Assembly: GCA_030949995.1 (NCBI GenBank)
Contig: JAUZRY010000030.1
Location: forward strand, 1 to 64,000
DNA: 64,000 nt
DNA from: Ardenticatenia bacterium
GTDB taxonomy: Bacteria > Chloroflexota > Anaerolineae > Ardenticatenales > Ardenticatenaceae
Reading direction: 5' to 3'
The notes below the pieces were generated by a model that was not told the origin of the DNA, did not search any database, and saw nothing but the letters and a program-made list of their open reading frames with translations. Position numbers and translations under genes: made by a program. Positions 919-3,086 of this stretch are shown here, one piece after another. Position 1 is the stretch's first letter, and every line of letters starts with the position of its first letter.

Positions 919-1095
919 TTACAGCTCCAACCCGGCGTAGAAGCCATGCAGATTCAGCGCTACGCCGTCCAGATAGAGATCATCGGATGACATCTGTGCT
1001 CGGCGCCATCCTTCCTGCGCGCGGTCGAGCACTCGGGCCATGTCACCCAGTTCATCACGAATGCGCCGGGCGACCTGGAGCAACTGTTCGTTCAC
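919..1095 (-). pseudogene. HepT-like (HEPN) toxin fragment, C-terminally truncated
   Basis: This 58-codon frame starts with GTG at 1095, overlapping the stop of the upstream nucleotidyltransferase by four bases (GTGA). The residues (MNEQLLQVARRIRDEL, then SSDDLYLDGVALNLHGFYAGLE) match my recollection of the N-terminus of HepT-like HEPN proteins that pair with MNT-type nucleotidyltransferases. Family members usually run to about 110-150 residues and carry an Rx4-6H active-site motif in the second half. Here translation ends after GLEL, and the sequence passes into the repeat tract at 819-890, so the catalytic part is gone. It is most likely a dead remnant. Confidence 0.6.
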
Positions 1096-1478
1096 AAGTC
1101 AACCCCTTCCCGCTCGATAATCTGATGCAAAGCGGGCCGACAATCTTCAGGTGCTACCAAGTCAATTTCAAACTCTGGGCTAAGGCCTGTCACAAGCGCC
1201 ACCGCTCGATAGAACGCATCAGGCGGTATCCCCCAGGCTGCCAGGTCTATATCCGACCAAGGCGTAAACCACGCGCGGTGCACCAGAGAACCAAAGGCCA
1301 CCACCCGCGTGGCCCCGAACTCCTCGCGTAGCAGACGGGCAGCAGCACGCGCCACCTCCCAGGCACGGCTCCCTTCGCCGGGCCAGTTCCGCTGCTGCTC
1401 CTGCTCCCGACGGAGTCGCGCGGCCCGCCTATACTGCGCCACCTCCTCTGGTGTCAGGTCCAATGCCATCCGCGCCAT
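1092..1478 (-). CDS. MNT-type nucleotidyltransferase-domain protein (antitoxin-like)
   Basis: A 128-residue protein with a minimal nucleotidyltransferase fold. The active-site loop reads GSLVHRAWFTPWSDIDLA, the GSx(n)DxD signature, at about residues 62-79. In HEPN/MNT toxin-antitoxin systems the MNT protein neutralises the HEPN RNase toxin, in characterised cases by adding AMP to a toxin tyrosine. The four-base overlap with the downstream HepT-like fragment is the normal pair arrangement. ATG 1478 is preceded by AGGAAGG; an alternative ATG lies nine bases further in. With the toxin truncated, this antitoxin would be an orphan. Confidence 0.75.
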   Translation of the reverse strand: MARMALDLTPEEVAQYRRAARLRREQEQQRNWPGEGSRAWEVARAAARLLREEFGATRVVAFGSLVHRAWFTPWSDIDLAAWGIPPDAFYRAVALVTGLSPEFEIDLVAPEDCRPALHQIIEREGVDL

Positions 1479-1496: not shown

Positions 1497-1568
1497 TTAT
1501 AGATGAGCCGGCAACTCAAAATACCCCAGTCTATTCAACCGCTTACGGATGACCTCAACCTTGACCAC
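1497..1568 (-). pseudogene. HepT/DUF86-like toxin fragment, 23 codons
   Basis: A GTG start at 1568 sits behind a strong AAAGGAGG ribosome-binding site and overlaps the end of the upstream nucleotidyltransferase by 14 bases. The peptide starts VVKVEVIRKRLNRL, which resembles the first helix of DUF86/HepT toxins. It then runs into GYFELPAHL and stops. The well-formed start with almost no gene behind it points to a large deletion of the toxin. The functional HEPN motif is absent. Confidence 0.5.
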
Positions 1569-1989
1569 CTAAAATCCTCCTTTTATAGGCCTCGCGTTGC
1601 ACATCCAGATAAGGAAGAAAGTCCAAGTACTGACGCACGATCTTGGAGTACATCGCTCCCCGATCGAAATCCTCCGCCTGATAAACCAACCGATTATGAC
1701 AGATAGCCTCGTATTTGAGGACGATGTCGTCGGTGTCCAGAAACACCAAATCCACGTCGCAGAAGCCATGGCGGGCCAGGTCGGTGAGGATATCTACCCT
1801 GCGATCTCGGAGAGCCCCCCTCCGGCGGGGCAAGATCGCCAAGTCGAGGTCACTCTCGCGGTGCGCGTGGCCGGCCGCATAGGAGCCGAATAGATACACA
1901 GCGGCGATATCCCTGTATGGTCGAAATATCTGCTCCAAAAGAGCCAAATCGGGCATTGCCGCCTGTTGTTCCTTTGACCTCAATTGCAT
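1555..1989 (-). CDS. MNT-type nucleotidyltransferase-domain protein (antitoxin-like)
   Basis: A nucleotidyltransferase-fold protein of about 144 residues. Its signature GSYAAGHAHRESDLDLAIL fits GSx10DxD exactly, and a later DVDLVFLD supplies the third acidic strand. The C-terminal part (YLDFLPYLDVQREAYKRR) looks like the helical tail of MntA-like antitoxins. The start is uncertain: the frame is open from 2040, and ATG 1989 or ATG 1956 are the likelier starts because the first 17 residues look non-coding. It overlaps a 23-codon HepT fragment downstream, so this pair has also lost its toxin. Confidence 0.75.
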   Translation of the reverse strand: MQLRSKEQQAAMPDLALLEQIFRPYRDIAAVYLFGSYAAGHAHRESDLDLAILPRRRGALRDRRVDILTDLARHGFCDVDLVFLDTDDIVLKYEAICHNRLVYQAEDFDRGAMYSKIVRQYLDFLPYLDVQREAYKRRILGGQG

Positions 1990-2029
1990 GGAGTTTCCCT
2001 GTTCATTCCCATGAAGCCAGAGGCGACTG

Positions 2030-2183
2030 TCACCCGCCAAGATAGAGTTCCTCGCTCATCCGGAACCCCGAAGCCACTTCAAATGCACCCGGACGCTCCT
2101 GTACCGAGGTGAGCACCTCTTCCCGGACGGCGGGAGGGATATACAGCTCTCCGTATAGAAGCCACAGCAAATCGAGACTCGTG
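2030..2183 (-). pseudogene. DUF3368/PIN-like toxin remnant
   Basis: Just downstream of the fused MNT-HEPN gene, one frame reads SLDLLWLLYGELYIPPAVRE followed by VLTSVQERPGAFEVASGF. This resembles the N-terminal third of DUF3368 PIN-like proteins (LLxxLYGEVxIPPAVxEEV...RPGA). There is no start codon or N-terminal beta strand with the first catalytic Asp, and the frame ends at 2030. I read it as a fragment of a VapC-like toxin. The identification rests on motif memory only. Confidence 0.45.
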
Positions 2184-3086
2184 TCATTTTTCCTCTGCCT
2201 CCAGCCCCTCCAAATATTGAAAGATACACTGGATGGTCCTCCCGAAGGTATCCAAGTGGTCCATAATGGTCCTGTACAGCAGTGCGTAATCGATATCCCA
2301 GTAGAGATGTACCAACACGTTGCGCATACCGGCCATAGCTTGGAGCTGGCTGCCCAAGTCAGCAGGCACAATTCCTTGCTCCTGGAGAATCTTCCCCACC
2401 TCCCTATATTCATGTGGCAGACCCAGCCCCGTCTTGACAACCACATGTCGTCCCAAGTCCAGGGTTGCTTCGATGGCAATGCGTAGGTAATGTTCGGACA
2501 GGGCCTTGGCCCGCTTGTCTGCCAGATACGTTTCCAATCCCATCTCCTCCAAGCCCAAGCCCTCTAACTCGCGAACGGCATCCCGGATCAAAAACACGAA
2601 CCGCTCGACTCGCTCCCTGTCTATCATGTTTATCTCTCTGATCATACCCTGTCGGCTCAATCCCCGCGTGACAATCCAATTCTCCCGACGCCACCCAGCC
2701 AAGTCGGCGTAACGTGCCAGCACTCGTTCCTCCCACTCCATCACGCCACGCCCTTCGAGAATACGGAGTCCACTGAGTACCACGTGAGCCTGCAAGGAAA
2801 GGGGTGCCTGATCCAGCAGCACCAGGTCTATGTTATCGGCCTGAAATACCCGGCACAGATCTCCATGCACATTGTTGTAGTAGTCAAGCCAGTCGACTTC
2901 CTCTGGAGGGGGCAAAACGGCGATGTCAAGGTCACTCAAGCACCTGTCGGGATCCTGAAGCACAGATCCAAAGATGTAGGCTCCTCGTGCATGGTGCCGG
3001 AGGAGCACCTCACGCACAGCCGGTATCATCTCCTGAACCTCAGCTAAGGTGAAGAGTTGAGGATTCAAGCACAAATCCACACGCAT
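2184..3086 (-). CDS. fused MNT nucleotidyltransferase-HepT (HEPN) protein
   Basis: A 300-residue single frame. The N-terminal half is an MNT nucleotidyltransferase: GSVLQDPDRCLSDLDIAV fits GSx10DxD at about residues 40-57, followed by DNIDLVLLD. From about residue 155 (MIDRERVERFVFLIRDAV) it becomes a DUF86/HepT-like helical domain with RNVLVHLYWDID, matching the HEPN Rx4HxY motif exactly. These are normally separate overlapping genes, antitoxin then toxin. In studied pairs the nucleotidyltransferase AMPylates the tyrosine of Rx4HxY. A fusion would fix the ratio at one to one. All key residues of both halves are present, so it may be functional. The start at ATG 3086 is a reasonable choice. 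Confidence 0.8.
   Translation of the reverse strand: MRVDLCLNPQLFTLAEVQEMIPAVREVLLRHHARGAYIFGSVLQDPDRCLSDLDIAVLPPPEEVDWLDYYNNVHGDLCRVFQADNIDLVLLDQAPLSLQAHVVLSGLRILEGRGVMEWEERVLARYADLAGWRRENWIVTRGLSRQGMIREINMIDRERVERFVFLIRDAVRELEGLGLEEMGLETYLADKRAKALSEHYLRIAIEATLDLGRHVVVKTGLGLPHEYREVGKILQEQGIVPADLGSQLQAMAGMRNVLVHLYWDIDYALLYRTIMDHLDTFGRTIQCIFQYLEGLEAEEK

Follow-up and report, generated by a model that had tools for sequence, protein, structure and literature searches.

Does a protein that joins the two partners of a type VII (HepT/MntA) toxin-antitoxin system in one chain still work as toxin and antidote, and if so, what keeps the toxin off? This question is raised by a 64,000-nucleotide stretch of DNA from an Ardenticatenia bacterium (Chloroflexota; GenBank assembly GCA_030949995.1, contig JAUZRY010000030.1, positions 1 to 64,000 of the forward strand), hereafter the window. 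An earlier note, made from the letters alone, had claimed that one frame carries both the nucleotidyltransferase (MNT) motif GSx10DxD and the HEPN RNase motif Rx4HxY, and the claim is exact: both lie in a single open reading frame of 300 amino acids plus a stop codon (2184..3086, minus strand). Judging from its motifs and relatives, the protein is probably a single-chain HepT/MntA toxin-antitoxin that AMPylates itself. Where the standard system has two adjacent genes, with mntA upstream of hepT, the window has one frame with the domain order unchanged, and the gene is therefore filed as a variant of type VII and not as a standard pair.

The MntA-like adenylyltransferase half spans residues 33-130 (2697..2990, minus strand, as are all features of this gene) and is recognized by NCBIfam NF047752 and by Pfam Polbeta (PF18765, residues 32-111, E 5e-10, 39.9 bits against a cut-off of 26.9). 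Its GSx10DxD motif, GSVLQDPDRCLSDLD, occupies residues 40-54 (2925..2969), and G40, S41, D52 and D54 are invariant across 22 aligned active fusions. From the alignment of fusions, D87 (2826..2828) is taken as the third magnesium-binding aspartate, presumably equivalent to D71, which binds Mg in Shewanella oneidensis MntA (PMC7641770). The junction (residues 131-153, 2628..2696) consists of the C-terminal helix of MntA, modeled at 129-145, followed by a short, low-confidence loop. At its end, a weak Shine-Dalgarno-like sequence, AGAGAG (2634..2639), lies 6 nt upstream of an ATG (M154, 2625..2627) placed where separate hepT genes start. The HEPN (HepT, DUF86) half covers residues 155-287 (2226..2624) by profile and fold matches, with the HepT-like family PF01934 at 169-287 (E 2.4e-26, 92.2 bits against a cut-off of 23.5). 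Its motif, RNVLVHLY (residues 255-262, 2301..2324), supplies by homology the RNase residues R255 and H260 and the AMPylation-site tyrosine Y262; all three are present, so the loss of the RNase motif that marks an inactive HEPN domain is not seen here. Aligned to the MntA and HepT families, as the earlier note had proposed, the protein scores 97.1 bits with the NCBIfam HepT_toxin model (cut-off 60) and 57.4 bits with the MntA_antitoxin equivalog (59.3 in the genome search), just below the cut-off of 60.

An AlphaFold2 model built on a 96-row alignment has a mean pLDDT of 92.3 and a pTM of 0.61; as modeled, each domain is well formed, and at this pTM their mutual orientation is uncertain. Foldseek matches both halves to the HEPN and MNT chains of solved HepT/MntA complexes, and among solved structures the sequence is related to HEPN toxins, from S. 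oneidensis and from the 7ae entries.

The surroundings of the gene differ from the earlier account of three decayed relatives, which was mostly wrong. The first of them (1555..2040, minus strand) is an intact MntA-like gene of 80 bits, over the NCBIfam cut-off, which lies 143 nt from the fusion gene; its partner hepT is missing. This orphan MntA is a possible modifier in trans of the fusion. The second, a weaker MNT-like frame (1092-1478, minus strand), is not visibly broken, and the third is unconfirmed; Pfam gave no confirmation of a PIN-like or HepT remnant adjoining the fusion gene.

The search for further fusions in Chloroflexota that the earlier note had suggested shows that the fusion is no isolated case. 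A full-length fusion of 311 amino acids with both motifs is found in another member of the class (L032, Anaerolineae A05DMB-I-32); it is 53% identical to that of the window and has the N-terminus MRVDLCLNPK in common with it. The weak point that the note had named, a stop codon at the junction lost to sequencing error, thus does not apply, since homologous fusions, this full-length one among them, exclude a local error. A census drawn from matches in a 400-genome phylum sample and a 396-genome class sample, supplemented by a small number of searches in relatives and in one plasmid, yielded 72 non-redundant in-frame fusions, with one more found later. Rx4HxY is kept in 30 of the 72, which represent no fewer than 21 genomes of the class sample, a minimum because only the best matches were counted; the architecture is a recurrent one. 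In all of these fusions, save one cut by a contig end, the MNT motif likewise retains its G, S, D and D. Only the HEPN motif served to sort the fusions; invariance of R, H and Y is therefore built in, whereas G, S, D and D were free to vary.

In the genome of the window (86% complete), only two HepT genes exceed the NCBIfam cut-off, and both are fused. The second (L002, contig 72, 1438-2379) is 32% identical to the first; it has a threonine at the third MNT aspartate and an intact RNase motif, while a relative (L124) has a serine at that position. Its modifier half is, from these residues, possibly impaired, and not every fusion need therefore be a working modifier. In the class of genome G166, separate pairs were numerous and in-frame fusions few, and no phage-borne copies were found among 50,697 phage records. 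Truncated or rearranged relatives also occur (L033, L038 and L084); in a Methylomirabilota sequence (L038:4001-4255), an in-frame gap joins the start of the fusion to the RNase motif and the MNT motif is gone. Another sequence (L109:2809-3363) is a chimera, with a HEPN half 73% identical to that of the window, no MNT half and a different N-terminus, KFEKLEVWELALDY. This N-terminus is similar to that of four-helix-bundle (23S intervening sequence) proteins.

Fusion of the two genes has recurred. In the HEPN tree, the fused or separate label switches about 13 times and the well-supported branches alone force at least 6-7 switches, in a tree of 139 columns whose details are unsure and in which gain and loss of fusion are indistinguishable; a single origin of the active fusions is unsupported by it. 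Of 71 separate pairs, 67 have their two genes in different frames, and in most of the 71 hepT overlaps the end of its mntA, so a small indel joins the two. A plasmid of Cytobacillus pseudoceanisediminis offers a case in point: its fusion and a separate pair 95% identical to it are told apart by a single base that shifts the frame within an A/T run, although a sequencing slip is a possible source of the joined frame. This 266-amino-acid fusion (L194:2432-3232, NZ_CP097350.1) has both motifs and is adjoined by macro-domain and DarT genes. Its gene table lists just a DUF86 protein from the internal ATG, which hides the MNT half; annotation can thus conceal MNT-HEPN fusions. In one genus, orthologous fusions show purifying selection on each half, with dN/dS in most pairs of 0.17-0.31 in MNT (up to 0.41 for pairs with a contig-cut sequence) and 0.03-0.21 in HEPN, as measured on fusion clades other than that of the window, whose pair with L032 is saturated. 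These orthologues reach dS of about 1-2 with all motif residues kept and a linker that is mostly looser.

Two readings would deny the window gene a working toxin and antidote. It could be a domesticated fusion with an inactive HEPN domain, since the RNase residues are stated to be typically absent from HEPN domains that share a chain with MNT (PMC3710099), and a large group of dead fusions does exist in the same phylum. This second kind of fusion forms a single clade in the HEPN tree (100/98 support), usually with one match per genome; its tyrosine is gone, and in many cases so are the histidine and the GS serine. Its members (L004, L007-L022, L024-L029, L044-L058 and L060-L062) belong to families f30, f43 and others of the phylum; the clade looks like a domesticated enzyme and fits the inactive fusions already described (PMC3710099). 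The window protein, however, falls outside this clade and keeps R255, H260 and Y262, and the HEPN half of orthologous active fusions is under strong purifying selection, all of which makes an inactive HEPN domain unlikely here. The other reading, a decaying locus or an assembly error in which a chance indel joined two genes that no longer have a use, can draw on the single base that separates joined from separate genes in the Cytobacillus plasmid and on the truncated or rearranged relatives. It is very improbable for the window, given a 53%-identical homologue of the same architecture and fused orthologues that keep every motif residue at dS 1-2.

The preferred reading, a self-AMPylating single chain, rests on chemistry carried over by analogy from two-gene relatives (PMC7641770, PMC11586414), and the enzymatic activities, dimer arrangement and trigger of the window protein are put forward on that footing. 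The MNT half would spend ATP to place AMP on Tyr262, beside the RNase site R255/H260, either on its own chain (in cis) or, where two HEPN halves pair, on the other chain of the dimer. So long as ATP is available and the MNT half is intact, AMPylated Y262 would keep the RNase off; the RNase would be released once the modification is lost, be it through ATP shortage, the action of a phosphodiesterase or phage infection. The fusion would have been born when a small indel merged overlapping, out-of-frame mntA and hepT genes, with both activities kept since; the frame relation of 67 of the 71 pairs and the one-base Cytobacillus case count for this origin. For the reading as a whole count the domain and fold matches, dN/dS well below 1 in both halves of orthologous fusions, the roughly 13 label changes and the fact that both HepT genes above the NCBIfam cut-off in the genome are fused. 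The motifs speak in the same direction: fusions with an intact Rx4HxY retain G, S, D and D as well, and those without the tyrosine are often without the serine too. Against it count the MNT score just under the NCBIfam cut-off, the uncertain domain orientation of the model, the measurement of selection on other clades, the threonine at the third MNT aspartate of the second fusion and the stoichiometry of known complexes, in which HepT outnumbers MntA (two MntA to six HepT, or one to four), a mismatch with a strict 1:1 fusion. The earlier note's reading is supported in part. A genuine single-chain fusion, both catalytic motifs with the AMPylation tyrosine, the existence and recurrence of homologous fusions and, in related orthologues, selection on both halves can be read from the sequences, while AMPylation of the protein by itself, in cis or in trans, is a prediction; the internal hepT start was missed by the note.

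This internal start is of interest precisely because known complexes hold more HEPN than MNT, a ratio that the fusion could match only with free HEPN. The new observation is that active fusions, unlike dead ones, keep the hepT start codon, often with a Shine-Dalgarno-like site; they may therefore also make free toxin. Of 30 active fusions, 29 have a start codon where the HEPN half begins. With the same score for all groups (the best of 12 codons, threshold -7), these sites average -7.9 with 63% at or below the threshold, near the separate hepT genes (-8.89, 77%), whereas equal windows elsewhere in active-fusion genes average -1.98 (5.7%) and dead-HEPN fusions -1.67 (2%). By lineage, 8 of 17 pass against about one expected (null 6.2%, binomial p 3e-6), or 6 with the least favorable representatives (p 4e-4), values to be read in the light of an idea that arose from inspecting the very genes later scored. 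The site is at or near the threshold in five sequences of one fusion clade, at dS of up to about 2, and in four of another whose linker falls to 41% identity. The gene could thus have two products, with starts at the first ATG and at the internal hepT start giving the fusion and free HepT; this is compatible with self-AMPylation, and we regard it as a tentative, rather doubtful addition. HEPN dimers of mixed make-up, or larger assemblies, would in that case have an excess of HEPN over MNT, as in two-gene systems. About half of the active-fusion lineages miss the threshold, however, and the window copy retains M154 behind a weak AGAGAG site (-3.6 kcal/mol, p 0.31), where L032 has AAGGAG; strong sites are those of L002, L093 and L005. 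A synonymous-codon shuffle did not remove the internal-site signal (median p 0.26) and gave no support for codon selection; the amino acids of the linker thus account for much of the signal, selection for initiation is unproved, and the site is possibly a vestige of the former gene start. It is conceivable, if still somewhat improbable, that active MNT-HEPN fusions form a recurrent one-gene class of toxin-antitoxin with two products, in which internal initiation, and not two genes, sets the toxin-to-antidote ratio.

A toxin that shares its chain with the antidote that modifies it cannot serve as an addiction module of the classical kind, in which the antidote is short-lived; that the fusion is maintained all the same points to a conditional RNase held under ATP-dependent self-tagging. 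One molecule thus makes two questions about type VII systems testable: whether AMPylation occurs within the chain or across the dimer, and what frees the RNase. The active fusions also correct the view of MNT-fused HEPN domains as dead by rule.

MNT-HEPN fusions as such have been named before (PMC2701414, PMC3710099), in the latter as typically inactive; no paper on an active, self-AMPylating one was found in the literature searched, whose reach left out most subscription journals. The closest known system is the HepT/MntA pair SO_3166/SO_3165 of S. oneidensis (PMC7641770), which shares with the window the Rx4HxY HEPN RNase, the GSx10DxD MNT, the order of MNT before HEPN and the folds, but consists of two proteins in a 6:2 complex, while the window encodes a single chain, hence a 1:1 ratio barring initiation at the internal start. 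In the HEPN-MNT system of Legionella pneumophila (PMC11586414), the HEPN toxin is AMPylated by MNT, which for the window fusion is a prediction by analogy; that system is again made of two proteins, with one MNT to four HEPN, and its MNT lacks the C-terminal helix 4, whereas in the window fusion a helix modeled at residues 129-145 runs on into the HEPN half. The inactive fusions (PMC3710099) have one chain and the domain order of the window fusion, but in those of this phylum the tyrosine has disappeared, frequently together with the RNase histidine and the GS serine, and there is no internal start site. The fusion of plasmid pAgK84 (PMC2701414) likewise joins both domains, a likeness drawn from its mention alone, order and motifs aside. 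Pfam and fold searches of the window fusion returned MNT and HEPN alone, with no toxSAS domain of the CapRel type. The folds and chemistry of CapRel are unrelated to those of the window fusion, and its toxSAS enzyme is restrained by binding, not by AMPylation. The likeness is one of working: CapRel, too, carries its toxin and its antitoxin on a single chain and responds to a trigger, in its case a phage capsid protein (PMC9712102).
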